This document shows, piece by piece, positions 9,982-36,025 of a DNA stretch of 36,457 nucleotides. The first letter of the stretch is position 1. Each line of letters begins with the position of its first letter. The DNA comes from a virus. The DNA lies in the IMG/VR virus record IMGVR_UViG_3300050821_005476, positions 1 through 36,457 of that record, one strand, 5' to 3'. The notes beneath the pieces are model-generated. The model did no database searches. It was not told the origin of the DNA and saw nothing but the letters and a program-made list of their open reading frames with translations. The position numbers and the translations under genes were made by a program.

Positions 9982-10172
9982 GGGGCGGGCCTCTCACGCG
10001 ATTAGGTGCCATCGTACTACCGGGGGGTTGTACCCTTCCCGGTTATAGCACGATGCGGTCACCTCATCAATCACCCGCCGGGGCAGGTAAACCGGCCGGG
10101 GGCGTGCCGCGTCTAGCTACCGAACGGGGAGGCCAAACGGGCCGCCCCGGACACACGAACAGGAGTAATCTG
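9982..10172. promoter_or_regulatory. Divergent intergenic region
   Basis: This 191-base gap separates the leftward exonuclease gene from the rightward secreted-protein gene and must hold promoters for both. Leftward, TACGAT (about 10010-10015) is a TAnnnT-type -10 candidate for the exonuclease operon, and TGCTATAAC near 10044-10052 is a weaker one. No strong -35 is visible in either direction. Confidence 0.4.
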
Positions 10173-10688
10173 TTGCAGCTACGCAAGCTCGGCCAGCGGG
10201 CCGCCCTCCTCGTGGGGGCCTCGGCCGCCGCGTCACTCCTCGCCCTCACCGCGGCGGGGGCCGCGTCGGCGACCACGCTCGGGGGCACCCCGCAGCCCAC
10301 CGCACCCCCGACCATCCTCTACACGCCGCCCACCACGCACACGCCGCCCCCGGTCGTGCGGCACCACCCGCCTAAGCCGGTGCGTCAGTGCTTCTACTCG
10401 TGGGAGACCGAGACCGACGTGATTACGCTCGCGGGCCAGAACCCCGAGCCCTACGGCCAGCCGACCGAGCAGTACGGCCAGCCCACGGGCGACCCCTCGG
10501 GCTACGGCCAGCCGAACGGGCACCCGGCCAACACCGAGACCGTGCATGTTACCCAACTCGTGAGGGTGTGCGTCACGGGTGCCAAGGTGGACAGCGTTAC
10601 CGACGTGTCCAGCCCCGAGGCGTGGGTCACCGTGCCCACCCCCTCGGGCAACCCGCCGATTACCGACCGGTACGTCACGGCTAGCTAG
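10173..10688 (+). CDS. Secreted phage protein with YGQP repeats
   Basis: A 171-residue exported protein. A basic n-region (residues 1-9, LRKLGQR), a hydrophobic Ala/Leu core (10-28) and an ASA|TT junction near residue 33 make a convincing signal peptide. The mature part has a Pro/Thr linker, a QCFYSW cysteine, three YGQP-containing units in about 25 residues (PYGQPTEQ, QYGQPTGD, GYGQPNGH) and a second Cys in LVRVCVTG that could pair with the first. The TTG at 10173 is preferred because GGAG lies seven bases upstream and it places the signal peptide at the N-terminus. Function is unknown; a role outside the host membrane, such as superinfection exclusion or wall interaction, is inference. Confidence 0.7.
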   Translation: MQLRKLGQRAALLVGASAAASLLALTAAGAASATTLGGTPQPTAPPTILYTPPTTHTPPPVVRHHPPKPVRQCFYSWETETDVITLAGQNPEPYGQPTEQYGQPTGDPSGYGQPNGHPANTETVHVTQLVRVCVTGAKVDSVTDVSSPEAWVTVPTPSGNPPITDRYVTAS

Positions 10689-25806: not shown

Positions 25807-26426
25807 CGTTTCGGTCCAATCTCGGGCTCGGCCGTGCAATGGCAATGCCCGTGAGCAGGGAACCCGGCGGCCGCCGGGCTGTAACCGCGCTCGGCGAGCG
25901 CAACGCAAAACGGGCACGCCCCCGGCCGAGCCCGGCGGATAACCCGCCCGGTGAGCCGCGGGTCCGTGCGTGAGGCGTATAGCGTGACGTGATTCGCCAC
26001 ACGGTAGGGCTCGGATGAGGCGAGGCGGGCCAGCCACGAGGCCACCGCCCCGGCGCACTCCTCGGCCGTGGCCCCGGCGGCCGCGCGGGCCAGCCACACC
26101 GAGGGCGCGAGCCGGGTCATGTCAGACAGGCGGCCACCCGAGGCCGAGGAGCCCACGAGCCCGGCCGGTATGCGGAACGGGCCGCCGGGGCGGCCGCCCG
26201 CTAGCACCGTGAGGGCGAGGAGCCACCGCGCGGTCTCGGCCGCGGTGAACTCCTGGGCGCCCTCGGTCCACGAGGCGGTCACCTCGGCCGCGAGCCCCGC
26301 CGAATACAGCGGCCGCCGCGGGTCCCACAAGATGAGCCACACCGCGGCGAGCCGCGCGAGGAGCCCGTTAACCGCCCCGCCGAGGCGGAGCCGGTAGGCG
26401 TCACCCAGAGCCACGCTAACGGCCAC
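25803..26426 (-). CDS. MuF-like minor capsid / head morphogenesis protein
   Basis: A 207-residue protein. The C-terminal PGACPFCVALAERGYSPAAAGFPAHGHCHCTAEPEIG has the CxxC...FPAH.HCxC signature of MuF/VG15-like capsid proteins, likely a zinc site. The N-terminal region is helical (AETARWLLALTVL). It is usually a minor head protein bound near the portal. The GTG start lies at the portal stop (TAG overlaps GTG by one base). Confidence 0.8.
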   Translation of the reverse strand: MAVSVALGDAYRLRLGGAVNGLLARLAAVWLILWDPRRPLYSAGLAAEVTASWTEGAQEFTAAETARWLLALTVLAGGRPGGPFRIPAGLVGSSASGGRLSDMTRLAPSVWLARAAAGATAEECAGAVASWLARLASSEPYRVANHVTLYASRTDPRLTGRVIRRARPGACPFCVALAERGYSPAAAGFPAHGHCHCTAEPEIGPKR

Positions 26427-27823
26427 TACGCCCCGCCCTGCCCGGTTACGCCACCCGCGGCCAGTAGCCGCGCATACTCGCCCTCGGGGCCGCCCAGAGC
26501 CCCTAGGGCGTTAGCCAACTGCTCGGCCTGCTCGGCCGCGCGGAGCGTACGCCACCGGTCGATTTCTTGCGGGCTCGCCCCGTACTTAGCCCATATCACC
26601 TCTTGCGGGATATTGATTGGCGGGGCGCCGAGCTTGCTTAGGGCGTCGGCGAGCTGGGCCACCGAGCGGGTCTCGAAATCGGCCCATATCACCTCGGCCC
26701 CGAGGTCGGCGGCCGCCGGGTTGCCCGTGAGGCGGAGGGCGTACCGGGCGGCGGTCTCCCACCCCTCGCCGACGTGCAACGAGCGGCGGCGGCACTTGGC
26801 CACGAGGCCGGCCTCGGCCGCCTTGATGGCATCGGCCGACAGGTTGGCGATTTGCCCGAGGAGGTAGTGCGGCGGGGTCTGGGTTATCGCCGCCATCTGG
26901 TTAACGTCCTGCTCAACCGAATCGAGGTAGCCGCGGAGGGCCGACTCGGGGAAGCTCCCGAACCGGGCGTCGGGGTTTTCGTTGGCGAGCAGGCGGTTAG
27001 CCCCGATGTCATACGGGGCCACCGGCCGGGTTATCTCGGTGCCATCGGCCGAGGTGACAGTCTGCCGGGCTATCTTGACCCCGGTCGCCCAGATTTGCCG
27101 GAACGCCGAGTAATCGGTTGCCACGAGCCGGGCAAACAACACCGTGTTAATCCGGTCCTGTATCGGTATGCACGAGTGAAGCTCAGACCTCGGCCACCCG
27201 TGGGTCCGCGGTTGCGGGGTTATCTCAATCATGCCCACCGCCCCGGCCGGGTTGGGGAGCACCTCGGGCGGCCCCGTGGCGCCGGCGTGCCACGTGGCGA
27301 TAACGTCAGGCAACATGAGCACCTCGGTACGGCGGCCGAGGGCCTCGGACCCGAACCGCTTGTAACCCGCCGCGCGGCGGCGGCGTGAGCCGGGCTCATA
27401 CAACACCGTTGCCTCGCGCGGGCTCTCGGCCGTCATCTCGACCCCGACCGGGCTATCCGGGTCGGGTTGCACGAGCACAAACGAGGAGCCGCACACCAGA
27501 GCGTCCGATTGCACTAGCTCGGCGTCGGCGTCCATCTGGTTGGCCTGCCAGATAGCCCACGCGTCCTCACCGCCGGTACCGGCGAACCGGAACCCGACGA
27601 CCTGTAGCCGCTCGGCGACCGCGTTCGCCACAAGCTCGCACCAATTCGCGCCGGCCTCTCGGATGAACGCCCGGAACGCGTGCCGCTCGGTGGTGTCGAG
27701 GATGACCGGTATTGCCTCCTCACCGTCGTAATACTCCTGATAGCGGGTCACCCGCGCGACCTGAGCGTCGAGGTGCCGCTCGGCCGCGGCCCGCCACGCC
27801 TGTAGCTCGTTCTCATCCATCAT
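26426..27823 (-). CDS. Portal protein
   Basis: A 465-residue protein of the SPP1 gp6-like type. Features include the N-terminal helix and YQEYYDGEEAIPVIL, the NWCELVANAVAERLQVVGFRF strand-turn region, PQPRTHGWPRSELHSCIPIQDRINTVLFARL and the tunnel-helix region with MAAITQTPPHYLLGQIANLSADAIKAAEAGL. It makes the dodecameric DNA channel at the head vertex. GGAAGGGCGCC precedes tandem ATGs at 27823 and 27820; either may be used. Confidence 0.92.
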   Translation of the reverse strand: MMDENELQAWRAAAERHLDAQVARVTRYQEYYDGEEAIPVILDTTERHAFRAFIREAGANWCELVANAVAERLQVVGFRFAGTGGEDAWAIWQANQMDADAELVQSDALVCGSSFVLVQPDPDSPVGVEMTAESPREATVLYEPGSRRRRAAGYKRFGSEALGRRTEVLMLPDVIATWHAGATGPPEVLPNPAGAVGMIEITPQPRTHGWPRSELHSCIPIQDRINTVLFARLVATDYSAFRQIWATGVKIARQTVTSADGTEITRPVAPYDIGANRLLANENPDARFGSFPESALRGYLDSVEQDVNQMAAITQTPPHYLLGQIANLSADAIKAAEAGLVAKCRRRSLHVGEGWETAARYALRLTGNPAAADLGAEVIWADFETRSVAQLADALSKLGAPPINIPQEVIWAKYGASPQEIDRWRTLRAAEQAEQLANALGALGGPEGEYARLLAAGGVTGQGGA

Positions 27824-27838: not shown

Positions 27839-29470
27839 CTAGAAACCGGCGGCGAGGTAGTCATCGTGCGGCGGGGCCGCGGCGTGGCGTATGGCCCGGT
27901 CCAGCGCCATCACCGCGGCGACCATTGAGTCGATTTTGTCAGTCGACCGCGATTTGTCGGGCTTGAGGTTGCCCGCCGGGTCGGTACGCACGATGAGGTT
28001 ACCGGCCTGCCACGCGATAAGCGGGTTACCCCCGTGCCGGTACAACCCCGAGGCGATGAGGCGGAGTAGCTCTTTTGTCGGGCCGCTCATCGTGGCGAAC
28101 CCCTGCCCGACCTGTATGAGCGGGAACCCCTCGTCTATCAAATCGCTGGCCATCTGGGTAGCCCCCCACCGGTCGAACGCTATCTCGCGGAGGTCGTACC
28201 GCTCGGCGTCGGTGCGCAACGCTACTTTGATGGCCTCGTAATCAATCACGTTGCCATCGGTGACGGTGAGGAGCCCCGCCGCGGCCCACACCGACGCGCG
28301 GCCCCCGGTGCGCCGGTCGAGGTCGGGCACTTGCGATTCGGGGGTGAACACCCGCCAAATCACGTCGTGCCCCCCGCGGGCGTCGGGAAAATCGAGGGCG
28401 TACGAGGCGAGGTCGATAGTCGAGGCCAGGTCGAGGCCGGCGTAACACGTGCGGCCGTCGAGGGCGGGCGGCGGCCCGGCGTAGGCATTCCACCGGGTCA
28501 TGTCGATAGCCCGGCCCGCTTGCGGCGTTTGCATGTTGAGCCGGTACTGTTTGAACGCCCGCTCGGCCGCCGGGTTGGCCACCGCCTTAGCGCACTCCGA
28601 CCGCAGCACCCGCGGGTCCAGATAGTCACCGAGGCCGGGGTTAGCCAGCGCCCACACGGCCTCATCGGTCCAATCCGCATCGGGCGGCACCGCGAACAGC
28701 ACCACGAGCCGGGCATGGTCCAACTCGGGGTCCTCTAGCACCTGCTCAGACCACGTACGCTCGGCGGCCGCGAACCCGGCCGGGTCGTTATCGGCGGTGG
28801 TGGCCAGGATGAGGAGGGGCTCGGCCCTCGCGCCGAACCCGGTACGCAACGCGTCGTAAAGCTCTCTCGACGGCTGGGTCAGTAGCTCATCGATGTAGGC
28901 GGCGTGCGGGTTGGGGCCGAGGGCGCCCGCGGCGTCACCGGCCATCACCGCGAAAAATGAGGCGGTCGATTCGTCGGCGATGCGGGCGGCCGAGCGGGCC
29001 ACGGCCAGGCGGCGGGCGAGGATGGGGGAGAGCTGCACCATGCGCGCGGCGGCCCGGTACGCTAGCCCGGCCTGGTCTTTGTCGAGGGCCAGCCCGTAAA
29101 TCTCGGCGGAGTCCTCACCGTCACCCACGAGCATGTAAAGCATGATTCCGGCGATTAGCTCGGTTTTGCCGTTTTTCCTCGCGGTCGAGAGGTAGCACTC
29201 TCGGTAGCGTCGGACGTAGCGGCGGCGGGCCGGGTCATACTCGACGGTGCCGAACAGCGGGCGGAGCACCCGCTCGCGCTCCCACGTGGCGGGGATGAAC
29301 GCCCGCCGGGCGTAGTCGCCTTTTGTGTGACAGAGCAACTCGGTAAAGAACGCGACCACGTGGCGGGCTCGGGGCTCGCATAGGTGCTCACCGCGGCGGC
29401 GGCACGTCTCGCCGTCGAACACCCGGCCACACGGCGGGAACCGTCGCCGGTCCTGCCGTGGTGGTGCCAT
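27839..29470 (-). CDS. Terminase large subunit
   Basis: A 543-residue packaging ATPase-nuclease. The Walker A region is STARKNGKT (95-103) and Walker B is AAYIDELL (190-197), followed by an ATTADN coupling motif near 223-228. The nuclease domain begins at TCYAGLDLAST (D347), with a later conserved acidic motif at DKIDSMVAA near the C-terminus. It cuts concatemeric DNA and pumps it into the head. A Cys-rich N-terminus (CGRVFDGETCRRRGEHLC) could bind zinc. It starts the late operon. The small subunit gene is 5.4 kb away, unlike the usual adjacent pair. Confidence 0.93.
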   Translation of the reverse strand: MAPPRQDRRRFPPCGRVFDGETCRRRGEHLCEPRARHVVAFFTELLCHTKGDYARRAFIPATWERERVLRPLFGTVEYDPARRRYVRRYRECYLSTARKNGKTELIAGIMLYMLVGDGEDSAEIYGLALDKDQAGLAYRAAARMVQLSPILARRLAVARSAARIADESTASFFAVMAGDAAGALGPNPHAAYIDELLTQPSRELYDALRTGFGARAEPLLILATTADNDPAGFAAAERTWSEQVLEDPELDHARLVVLFAVPPDADWTDEAVWALANPGLGDYLDPRVLRSECAKAVANPAAERAFKQYRLNMQTPQAGRAIDMTRWNAYAGPPPALDGRTCYAGLDLASTIDLASYALDFPDARGGHDVIWRVFTPESQVPDLDRRTGGRASVWAAAGLLTVTDGNVIDYEAIKVALRTDAERYDLREIAFDRWGATQMASDLIDEGFPLIQVGQGFATMSGPTKELLRLIASGLYRHGGNPLIAWQAGNLIVRTDPAGNLKPDKSRSTDKIDSMVAAVMALDRAIRHAAAPPHDDYLAAGF

Positions 29471-29601
29471 AGCGTAATCATGCCGTTAGCTGGGCAAAGA
29501 TGCGAGCTTGGCGGGGTTGACACCGCTTACGGACCTGTAGTTTGGTTGCGGTCGGTCACCGGTAGTGGGGTGTTTCACTCTCGGTCAACCACGAGGTCGA
29601 G

Positions 29602-29636
29602 CCGTGGTGAACCGCGGTTTTTGCGGTTTACCACGG
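29602..29636 (+). repeat. 14-bp hairpin, GGTTTTT loop
   Basis: CCGTGGTGAACCGC pairs with GCGGTTTACCACGG around a 7-base GGTTTTT loop. The single non-complementary position is G/T, which pairs (G-U) only in RNA made from the + strand; on the minus strand it would be an A-C mismatch. This hints that the functional transcript is rightward. Confidence 0.6.
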
Positions 29637-29655
29637 GGGGTCTTGACCTTAGACC

Positions 29656-29674
29656 CCTCAACCTCTGGTTGAGG
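29656..29674. repeat. 8-bp perfect inverted repeat
   Basis: CCTCAACC, TCT, GGTTGAGG. It could be an RNA hairpin or protein binding site between the large terminase start and the candidate small RNA. Confidence 0.55.
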
Positions 29675-29765
29675 TTAGGGCGGGGCCACCGTCGAGGGCC
29701 GGTAACGGTTAGGCGACCGCTACCGCCTCGGTGCGGTGTTGCGCTTCCGCCACCGACCGTTATTC

Positions 29766-29774
29766 TGCTATATT
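29766..29774 (+). promoter_or_regulatory. Promoter-like TGCTATATT (extended -10)
   Basis: Extended -10 of the TGCTAnnnT form, here with a near-ideal TATATT. It is rightward, 40 bases before the terminator stem; transcription would start near 29781. No good -35 is seen at 17-18 bases. Confidence 0.5.
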
Positions 29775-29780
29775 CGAGGC

Positions 29781-29856
29781 GCCTAGTTACGTGGGTCAAA
29801 ACGTAGTCCGGCCGAGGTGGGAGGCACAACCCCCTCGGCCGGGCCGTTTTTTATTT
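29781..29856 (+). ncRNA. Candidate small phage RNA (~75 nt)
   Basis: The segment lies between a TGCTATATT promoter-like site and a strong intrinsic terminator, and has no open frame of note. The predicted RNA would have a short 5' hairpin (TACGT/ACGTA around an 8-base loop, 29789-29806) and the terminator stem. No rightward gene ends here that would need this terminator, which is the main argument for an RNA. The true 5' end is a guess. It could be an antisense regulator, a packaging-associated RNA next to terL, or a relic. Confidence 0.45.
29806..29856 (+). terminator. Strong intrinsic terminator
   Basis: CCGGCCGAGG (29808-29817) pairs with CCTCGGCCGG (29833-29842). The stem can extend outward by a T-G and a G-C pair to 12 base pairs. 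It is followed at once by CG and then TTTTTTATTTT. The T tract is on the + strand only, so it stops rightward transcription. This is the clearest T-tract terminator in the window. Confidence 0.8.
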
Positions 29857-29884
29857 TGCCTCCGCTTGGGATTTGGGTCGCGGC

Positions 29885-29915
29885 GAGCCCGGCCGAGCGA
29901 CACCCGGCCGGGCTC
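29885..29915 (-). terminator. 11-bp stem after the leftward operon
   Basis: GAGCCCGGCCG and CGGCCGGGCTC form a perfect 11-base stem with a 9-base loop, 24 bases beyond the stop of the gene at 29939. It lacks a T tract on either strand, so it is a hairpin terminator of the non-canonical kind or an RNA 3'-end protector. Confidence 0.5.
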
Positions 29916-29917
29916 AT

Positions 29918-29944
29918 CGGTGCTACCGCGTTGCGGTGCTACCG
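29918..29944. repeat. Two direct repeats CGGTGCTACCG
   Basis: Identical 11-base copies at 29918-29928 and 29934-29944, 16 bases apart; the second overlaps the TAG stop of the gene at 29939. Each includes GGTGCTACC, which also occurs at the promoter-like sites near 2972 and 34069, so these may be extra binding sites for the same regulator. Confidence 0.5.
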
Positions 29945-30505: not shown

Positions 30506-30789
30506 GGCCGGGTCCTCCTCTGGGTTTGCTCCCGCTCCTCGGCCAGCCTAACTAAGTCATGCCCGCACGGTAGCCCGGCGGGTGATAGCCCCGCGTGACA
30601 GACCGCCGATTGCTCGGCGTGGCCGGGGGCGTCGAGCCACTCGGCGACCGCGGCGTATAGCCGGGGGTCGGCGGGCCGCCCGCGGCCGAGGGACTCGTTA
30701 ATCTTGTGCATCGGCCGGGCGACCGGGTCGCGGTAGTCGGCACACGCGACCCGGCCGTCGAGCAGGCGGATAACCACGTGCCACGGCAT
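30481..30789 (-). CDS. Hypothetical protein
   Basis: A 102-residue protein that I do not recognise. It begins with beta-like PWHVVIRLLDGRVACADYRD, has a helix (PRLYAAVAEWLDAPGHAEQS), two later Cys/His pairs (VCHAGLS, PCGHDLVRL) and an Arg/Thr-rich end with CHTEMC. The Cys and His number suggests metal binding. No ribosome site is seen; instead the 21-base gap upstream is A/T-rich (two TTACAAA-like copies), which is odd for this genome. Confidence 0.62.
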   Translation of the reverse strand: MPWHVVIRLLDGRVACADYRDPVARPMHKINESLGRGRPADPRLYAAVAEWLDAPGHAEQSAVCHAGLSPAGLPCGHDLVRLAEEREQTQRRTRPCHTEMCT

Positions 30790-30810
30790 GATTTGTAATT
30801 TTTGTAACGG

Positions 30811-31818
30811 CTACTCGGCCCGGCGGCGGGGCGGCCGCCACGCCCGGTCGACCTCGGTCCACGCGGGGTCGTCGGGGTCGTCAGGGTCGCCCCCCGCCGC
30901 CCTCACCGCCTCGACGGCCTCGGCCCGCATCGCGCGGAGCCGGGCCGAGATAGCCCCGCCGAGTATCGGCAGGAACGGGTCCCACGCCCCGGCCTGTATC
31001 GACTCGTAAGCGGCGAACGCGGTAGCGGTACACACCGAGAGGTCGGGCCACTCGCCGGGAAGCTCGGCCCCGCTCACCGCGAGGTCGGCGGCGGCCAGAG
31101 CGGAGGCAAACCCGATTTCGGCCCGGCCGGCGTCGGCGGTAACCCGCACCTCGACGGCCGGGGGCTCGCCCACCGGCCCCCGCCGCTCGGGCTGGCCATC
31201 ACCGCGCCCTACGTGGTGCATCACCACGCGGCGAGCCCCCGGCCCGGCGGCGTTGTCTGTCGCCTCCGGTGTTGCCGGGCCGGGGGAGTCGGCGACCGCG
31301 AGCGGGCGTATGCCCTGCTCCCGGGCGAGCCCTAGGGCGGCGGCGACCTCCTCGACAGTGGCGCCCTCGGGCACCGCCCCGCTCTCGACCAGAGCCCGCG
31401 CGACCTCCTCGGCCCCGGGCGGGGGAGTGCCGGGCGGGGCCACATACATTTGATGCCCGGCGGTGTCGGTGCCTAGCTCGGCCCACGGCGGCCGGGGCTC
31501 GGGCGGCCCGGTCACCACCACCCCGGTAAACGGCACGAGGTTATCGGCCCCGCACGAATAGGCGCCCCCGTCGAGGATGGCCTCGACATACGGCCGCTCG
31601 GGGTCGGCGTAGAGGATAAGCTCGGCCACCGTCATAGGGCCGCCATCGGGCGTCGGGTTGCCCAGACCGGGCATAGCCGGGTTAACGTACGTCACCACGA
31701 GCCCCGGTGTCAGGAGGTGCCCGGTCGGGTTAGTGACGTACTCGGCCAGCACCCGCGGGGCCTCGGGGTCGTCGGGGTCGGTGACCACGAACTTGGAACC
31801 TACGAACTTACCGGCCAT
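30811..31818 (-). CDS. Hypothetical protein
   Basis: A 335-residue protein of unknown function. Residues 1-125 are beta-rich (GKFVGSKFVVTDPDD, GLVVTYVNPAMPG, NLVPFTGVVVTGPPE). HQMYVAPPGTPPPGAEE recalls the YVAPPGT of the major tail protein. The middle has helical stretches and a linker. Residues 225-300 hold VEVRVTADAGRAEIGFASALAAADLA. The end is Asp/Pro-rich and basic. It could be a decoration or structural accessory protein, but only context suggests this. GAGGAGG precedes the start. Confidence 0.68.
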   Translation of the reverse strand: MAGKFVGSKFVVTDPDDPEAPRVLAEYVTNPTGHLLTPGLVVTYVNPAMPGLGNPTPDGGPMTVAELILYADPERPYVEAILDGGAYSCGADNLVPFTGVVVTGPPEPRPPWAELGTDTAGHQMYVAPPGTPPPGAEEVARALVESGAVPEGATVEEVAAALGLAREQGIRPLAVADSPGPATPEATDNAAGPGARRVVMHHVGRGDGQPERRGPVGEPPAVEVRVTADAGRAEIGFASALAAADLAVSGAELPGEWPDLSVCTATAFAAYESIQAGAWDPFLPILGGAISARLRAMRAEAVEAVRAAGGDPDDPDDPAWTEVDRAWRPPRRRAE

Positions 31819-34673: not shown

Positions 34674-34888
34674 TAGTCACCGTCCAGCCCGACCGGGTGT
34701 ACCTCGACCTCGCCCCCGACCACGTAGGCGAACGCCACCGCACCACTAACCCGCTCGGCAAGTACGGGGTCCGCTGCGATTGGGACGGGCACGGCGGGTT
34801 GCTCGGCATCCACGTGCCCGTGAGCAAGCCGGGCGAGGAGATACGGGTCGATGTCGGCGACCTCCTCGCCGCCGCGGTCGACCACTAG
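34670..34888 (+). CDS. Small hypothetical beta-rich protein
   Basis: A 72-residue protein: MIVTVQPDRVYLDLAPDHVG, then KYGVRCDWDGHGGLLGIHVP and GEEIRVDVGDLLAAAVDH. The strand pattern resembles small DUF2283-like folds, but this is uncertain. The ATG overlaps the previous stop (ATGA). Its TAG stop shares CTAG (34885-34888) with the oppositely oriented small terminase stop, so the two genes converge with a 4-base overlap. Confidence 0.65.
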   Translation: MIVTVQPDRVYLDLAPDHVGERHRTTNPLGKYGVRCDWDGHGGLLGIHVPVSKPGEEIRVDVGDLLAAAVDH

Positions 34889-35301
34889 GCGAGGAGCCGC
34901 TCAGCCCCCGCACCACCACCCGCCGCCGGGCCGCGCAACTGCTGACGGGCCGCCGGGGTAAACCCGAACTCACGCGCCCACATACGCATCTCGGGGCCGA
35001 GCTTGATAAGCCTCGCCACCACCGCCGGGTCCCCGAGGTCTTCCCGGTCGAGCCGCCGCATAGCCGCCACACACCGACACCACGAGGCAAACGCGTCAGC
35101 GTCGACCCGGTGCCCAATCCGCATATGCACAAGCTCGGGCAACTGCTCGTGCCACACCGCGAGCACCTCGGCCGTGAGCCCCGCCGGGGGCACGATGCCC
35201 TCGGGCGTAGGCACGGGCTCGGCCTGGTTAATCCTGCACGGCCGGGCACCGCGTAGCTCTTTCACAACCGCCGGTTGCGGCGCCGGTCCTCGACGGCCCA
35301 T
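34885..35301 (-). CDS. Terminase small subunit (P27 family)
   Basis: A 138-residue protein. It begins MGRRGPAPQPAVVKELRGARP, the common start of P27-type small terminases, has helical VLAVWHEQLPELVHMR and FASWCRCVAAMRRL, and ends near FGFTPAARQQLRGP, also typical of the family. It recognises the phage packaging site and hands DNA to the large subunit. The large subunit gene is 5.4 kb downstream rather than adjacent. No strong ribosome site is seen before the ATG. Confidence 0.82.
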   Translation of the reverse strand: MGRRGPAPQPAVVKELRGARPCRINQAEPVPTPEGIVPPAGLTAEVLAVWHEQLPELVHMRIGHRVDADAFASWCRCVAAMRRLDREDLGDPAVVARLIKLGPEMRMWAREFGFTPAARQQLRGPAAGGGAGAERLLA

Positions 35302-35467: not shown

Positions 35468-36025
35468 TTACACGTCGGGCACCTCGCCGACCTCGAATAG
35501 CGCGAGCGGCACACCCGCCGCCGCCATCCTCCGGTCTACGCCCGCACGAGCCACCGCGAGATTACGGGCAATCGTGCGGAGCCGGGCCGGGTCATCACCC
35601 CCGAGCCCGATAAGCGTATTGCAATTACCGTGAGCGAGCCCCCGCCAGCACACCGAGCACGCCCAACCTTTAGGGCAATGGCGGTGGTCGTGGTCGAGCA
35701 CCACGATAGCGGCCCCCGCCCGCTTAGCCCGGGGGCCGCGCAACCCGGGGGGAAGGTCGGGCAACTCCTCGCCGCACAGATAGCACCGCCCGCCCTGCTC
35801 GGCGAACATCGCCGCCCACCGCTCGGGCGTAGCCCCGGTGCGCCACCGCTGGGTCCGCACCGGCCCGACCGCGGGGCGAGCCACATACGCTCGGCGTTTG
35901 CGAGCGTTGATTACCGGCGCCCTGCCCACCCGGCGGCGGCGGTCCTCCGCGTTGATGTGCTCGCGGTTAGTCGCCCGGTAGTCCCTCCACCGCTCGCGGT
36001 CGTCCGCACCGTTACCCTTGCCCAT
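35468..36025 (-). CDS. Recombination endonuclease VII homologue
   Basis: A 185-residue protein. The core is CYLCGEELP (C81, C84), then VVLDHDH (111-114) and WACSVCWRGLAHGNCNTLIGLGGD, with zinc Cys near 123/126 and 135. This is the T4 endonuclease VII-type His-Me finger. The basic N-terminal 75 residues are rich in Arg. It resolves branched DNA so that it can be packaged, which fits its place just before the small terminase. A strong GAGGAGG precedes the ATG. Confidence 0.82.
   Translation of the reverse strand: MGKGNGADDRERWRDYRATNREHINAEDRRRRVGRAPVINARKRRAYVARPAVGPVRTQRWRTGATPERWAAMFAEQGGRCYLCGEELPDLPPGLRGPRAKRAGAAIVVLDHDHRHCPKGWACSVCWRGLAHGNCNTLIGLGGDDPARLRTIARNLAVARAGVDRRMAAAGVPLALFEVGEVPDV

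Follow-up and report, generated by a model that had tools for sequence, protein, structure and literature searches.

A gap beside the large terminase gene (terL) of an uncultured phage of actinobacterial type carries sequence signals that give good support to a rightward non-coding transcription unit. Our analysis covered the whole viral record, a window of 36,457 bp with 71% GC in which the genes point leftward nearly throughout. The initial annotation had placed a non-coding RNA with its own promoter and terminator beside terL. The signals for such a unit are present, but its extent is probably larger, about 300 nt (29550-29853), and the 29766-29856 block that had been singled out probably makes up no more than the 3' portion of a bigger element. 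Our preferred reading, which we hold with slightly more doubt than belief, is that the gap may contain a self-contained rightward ncRNA gene with a cargo-type product of about 300 nt. The gap resembles a gene for an RNA that folds and measures about 70 to 300 bases, and we consider it a good orphan candidate among structured phage RNAs. The features discussed below are listed in Table 1.

Table 1. Genes and sequence features in and around the gap beside terL (+, rightward; -, leftward).
Feature	Coordinates	Strand	Description
Portal	26426-27823		
TerL	27839-29470		TerL_nuclease PF20441 at 256-529
Gap from terL to the leftward gene that follows	29471-29938		468 bp, one of the longest intergenic stretches in the window
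Promoter-like site P1	29517-29543	+	TTGACA-15 bp-TAGTTT; predicted +1 about 29550
Structured domain, closed multibranch	29549-29759	+	8-bp closing stem 29549-29556/29752-29759
Domain hairpin	29559-29584	+	
Domain forked arm	29585-29672	+	two hairpins
Domain long arm	29673-29750	+	
Linker	29760-29805	+	AU-rich, weakly structured; contains the extended -10 TGCTATATT
Candidate internal promoter P2	29766-29774	+	TGCTATATT; predicted +1 about 29781
Intrinsic terminator	29806-29857	+	14-pair stem, 9-nt loop, TTTTTTATTTT
Perfect 11-bp inverted repeat	29885-29915		no T-tract; between the terminator and the leftward gene's end
Orphan protein, 188 aa	29939-30505	-	Pro/Gly/Trp-rich (PEFPEGPWEPGSPEFPWVP...)
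Terminase_4 TerS	34885-35301		separate gene, 5.4 kb beyond the gap
Endonuclease VII-type protein	35468-36025	-	PF02945; upstream of TerS

Genomic Setting and Coding Potential of the Gap

The orphan protein encoded next to the gap has neither a family nor a relative in the five records searched for its gene or in viral contigs, and the protein encoded at 30811-31818 has a sole, partial match of 36 residues. The inverted repeat downstream of the terminator could serve the leftward operon as a terminator or an insulator. Of all folds outside the gap, the whole-window scan ranked that at 30751-30960 on the + strand as the strongest (z about -5.1); within it the 30481-30789 gene starts and the 30811-31818 gene ends. 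The promoter-like site that ranks second in the window, at 10047 (-), is TTGATG-17-TATAAC with TG; it reads leftward between a leftward exonuclease gene and a rightward orphan open reading frame of 211 aa (10053-10688, +), a region that is probably a divergent early region.

Like a phage sRNA gene, the gap has no protein-coding signal. Codon-position GC is flat (0.60/0.60/0.60) compared with a GC3 of about 0.8-0.9 in real genes. A protein-coding reading was rejected, as the open reading frames that cross the gap show no coding bias and have no relatives in Pfam or among phage proteins. This agrees with the initial annotation, according to which no rightward gene ends at the terminator. No tRNA or tmRNA was found, Rfam gave 0 matches at its gathering cutoff in the window, and a search of the gap returned none at E<=5 for a pRNA family.

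A Strong Terminator and a Structured Domain

As in a phage sRNA gene, the sense strand of the candidate carries an intrinsic terminator. Its stem (29806-29844), in which 12 of the 14 pairs are GC, is followed by CG and the T-tract at 29847-29857. On a simple score that combines stem, GC content and T-tract, the terminator reaches 35, the best value in the window. When the whole window was dinucleotide-shuffled 150 times, the highest score was 31, and 3000 shuffles of the gap likewise failed to attain 35; the top terminator score in a smaller set of 12 shuffles was 32. The site had been described as the clearest T-tract terminator of the window, a description that these scores bear out. A simple terminator scan with a loop limit of 8 nt overlooks it because the loop has 9 nt.

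Folding of the region that spans the structured domain (29546-29760) gave -123.3 kcal/mol and a z of -6.6 on the + strand, and no shuffle folds as well. Among 486 scan windows on both strands, the domain is the most extreme and holds the four most extreme z values, each of which is rough since the scan used 12 shuffles per window. Terminator and fold thus lie far outside chance; the promoter-like sites do not. The signals of the 29766-29856 block are there, but the block does not stand alone: immediately before it come a highly structured segment of 210 nt and a second promoter-like site.

Two Candidate Promoters and the Length of the RNA

Two candidates for an own promoter were found. P1 ranks first among 267 promoter-like sites on both strands of the window, as scored with a matrix that was set by hand and may not match the host sigma factor. 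It is the only TTGAC in the window with TANNNT 14-20 bp further on, and the best leftward promoter-like site in the gap ranks 31st. Gap shuffles yield a score at the level of P1 in 3% of cases, shuffled windows about once each, and the spacer of 15 bp is short; P1 alone is not significant. Its predicted start coincides with the beginning of the closing stem of the domain, and P1, the structured domain and the terminator follow each other in this order on one strand within 341 bp.

The initial annotation had also reported a rightward extended -10 at 29766, and we found it in place. TGCTATATT is the sole TGNTATAWT on either strand of the 36,457 bp, TATATT likewise occurs once, and the TGNTATAWT motif appears in 0.2% of gap shuffles. 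The -35 region before P2 is poor (best score -1.3), so P2 would need to act as an extended -10. The fold of the surrounding linker (47 nt) is not stable, and its base-pairing targets within the phage come down to one 10-mer.

If P2 were the only start, the gap would encode just an sRNA of about 73 nt that runs from about 29781 to the terminator, with the upstream domain as a separate element. Such an RNA has a fold z of -5.1, and its promoter motif has no second copy in the window and turns up less often than P1 in shuffles of the gap. However, its stability comes almost entirely from the terminator hairpin, which leaves little RNA besides, the -35 region argues against it, and the strongest fold of the window would go unexplained, so that we judge this short version to be unlikely. 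The earlier estimate of about 75 nt with two hairpins holds for one very strong hairpin, whereas the second is a weak one of 5 bp. Because the promoter statistics are not decisive, the choice between an RNA of about 300 nt and one of about 73 nt rests on anatomy.

Strand of the Structured Domain

Read on the - strand, the 29546-29760 region folds with -118.7 kcal/mol and a z of -8.8, again better than any shuffle. Since both strands fold strongly, a leftward role and a role at the DNA level have to be weighed. In the first case, the domain would be a structured leader of the leftward (-) terL mRNA that controls translation or stability, and the terminator hairpin would mainly separate operons. 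The amount of TerL is often regulated, the - fold has the larger z, and, read leftward, the hairpin scores 31 as a terminator (tail ACTACGTTTTG). Yet the - fold contains fewer pairs (77 versus 86) and fewer G-U pairs (2 versus 13), the gap offers no good leftward promoter, and the structure is not common to the terL leaders of relatives, which together make a leader of this kind rather improbable. The G-U pairs themselves favor the + strand weakly because this strand is G/T-rich in the domain.

In the second case, the gap would hold a cluster of inverted repeats that act as double-stranded or extruded DNA, i.e., an operator array, a replication or packaging signal or the remnant of a mobile element, beside a terminator that separates operons. 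The complementary arms and the equal DNA fold energies of the two strands (-61.3 and -61.6) are consistent with this, and the phage encodes an endonuclease VII-type protein; in T4, endonuclease VII acts on branched DNA. However, the repeats are nested and arm-specific and not copies of one operator, no second copy of the element was found in the window or in relatives, and TerS is encoded 5.4 kb away. We therefore regard an element of this type as quite improbable.

Relatives and the Site Upstream of terL

Relatives of TerL in viral contigs share 72-78% identity. In 4 of the 12 close loci (L003, L028, L031, and L032) as well as in the more distant L051, the first gene past terL is directed away from it, whereas most other relatives have this gene directed toward terL; TerS lies immediately before TerL in many distant relatives. 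Judged by this gene order, the spot upstream of terL is a variable cargo site opposed to the late operon. The small genes that point away from terL in L003, L028, L031, L032, and L051 are apparently unrelated in sequence.

L003 (terL match from 973), L028 (558), and L031 (2773) have a common hairpin directly upstream of terL, with a loop of about GGTGGTTCCTTCC in the sense of terL (GGTGGTTCTATCC in L028). The complement resembles the ribosome-binding region of the gene that points away from terL. This hairpin is a possible conserved leader element of terL.

No conserved homologous structure was detected in the terL gaps of relatives, where folds are mostly ordinary; the strongest are those of L004 (-5.7), L029 (-5.3 on the - strand), and L026 (-4.3). 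In L004, a promoter-like ctgaca-18-CAAAAT (score 14.5) is directed away from terL and followed by about 150 nt in which no gene is called and whose end is formed by a GC-rich hairpin with a short run of T. These signals of L004, like the four close loci with a gene directed away from terL, speak for our main reading. Without the hairpin, however, the stability of this block is nothing unusual (z -1.15), and it may be the leftward gene that the hairpin serves.

The initial annotation had proposed, as a test, conservation of the block in relatives that keep its flanking genes, along with covarying stems. The block fails this conservation test, as none of the 12 closest terL loci with upstream flank contains it. 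No homologue of the element was found in 36 records of relatives, and none of the TerL relatives has it by BLAST, by fold or by R1, a covariance model built from a single sequence that finds close homologues only, so that absence is not proof. Structure covariation consequently had nothing to compare. Searches of annotated phages and plasmids gave no match worth noting, 396 actinobacterial genomes gave none with either query, with few candidates scored per genome, and pattern scans of viral contigs returned 0, 3, 0 and 0 contigs. The only R1 matches, those in L115, L013, and L030, were treated as chance, as their alignments contain many broken pairs; their E-values were 0.01-0.05 in a four-locus search and 0.06-0.9 in larger searches, and the L115 match falls inside protein-coding frames.

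The lack of a homologue thus counts against our main reading, as do the non-significance of P1, the strong fold on both strands and the ordinary block of L004. A chance cluster, in the form of a decayed, once-coding or MITE-like insertion with fortuitous hairpins, would suit the hypervariable site, the lack of a relative and a P1 expected once per shuffled window, but is very improbable given a fold and a terminator far outside the shuffles.

Proposed Expression and Function of the Candidate RNA

The sequence itself shows the terminator, the fold, the lack of a coding signal and the variable site, whereas we infer the transcription, strand, start, ends, stability, and function of the preferred RNA of about 300 nt. 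Transcription would start near 29550 at P1, the RNA would fold into the closed multibranch domain, and transcription would stop at the strong terminator, near 29852. A 3' form of about 73 nt that shares this terminator could arise from P2 (TATATT) or by processing. The RNA would be made independently of leftward late transcription, as a "moron"-like cargo. A cargo RNA is probable because the unit opposes the late operon, has signals of the housekeeping type and occupies a site where relatives carry small genes of the same direction as separately transcribed cargo.

We propose that the RNA would act in trans as a regulatory or decoy RNA. The antisense role that the initial annotation had offered as an alternative may also apply: if leftward transcription read through from 29939 into terL, it would produce an RNA complementary to the entire element, and in cis the candidate would, as a by-product, act as antisense RNA against any terL leader transcribed across the gap. 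The bolder proposal of a new class of compact multibranch phage RNA of about 300 nt, self-transcribed as cargo beside terL and acting in trans, for example as a decoy for the host RNA polymerase, the ribosome or an RNA-sensing defence, is one that we put forward with considerable reserve and would not expect to hold. Large structured phage ncRNAs are few and mostly unexplained. If our reading is correct, it would suggest that RNA-only cargo is carried by phages as small protein morons are, and would show that a terminator without a client can point to an RNA gene that is not annotated.

Comparison With Known Phage RNAs

The pRNA of phi29 is 174 nt long, and the phi29-type motor consists of an ATPase without a working nuclease and has no TerS. 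Like pRNA, the candidate would be a non-coding multibranch RNA of a tailed phage, encoded here beside the gene for the packaging ATPase. Unlike in phi29, the nuclease domain of TerL (PF20441) is complete, a separate gene encodes TerS (Terminase_4) and the element has no Rfam match. In addition, pRNA has been called unique to the phi29 group in a review (PMC11476376). The packaging RNA role that had been raised as a speculation for this locus is therefore not supported.

Phage sRNAs, whose lengths run from about 20 to nearly 800 nt, form an established kind (PMC12197685) that includes the regulatory sRNAs OOP (77 nt), IsrK (217 nt), and aQ (220 nt) of prophages and temperate phages (PMC12197685, table). 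These RNAs have known targets and different hosts, whereas the gap element is without a sequence or Rfam match. The candidate shares with them that it is phage-encoded, falls into the same size range and lies between or against phage genes.

Actinobacterial phages make abundant non-coding RNAs, and those of mycobacteriophage cluster A comprise the right-end RNA of L5, D29, and StarStuff, which is transcribed from Pleft, and an RNA from the 63-64 intergenic region of D29 (PMC5712189). No sequence relationship to the cluster A RNAs was found, and the RNA described here is a candidate predicted from sequence; the right-end RNA differs further in that its early promoter sits at the end of the genome and a canonical terminator is missing (PMC5712189). 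What the candidate has in common with the cluster A RNAs is an actinobacterial tailed phage as its source and, as predicted here, a length of a few hundred nt, an origin in an ORF-free gap and a promoter of its own.
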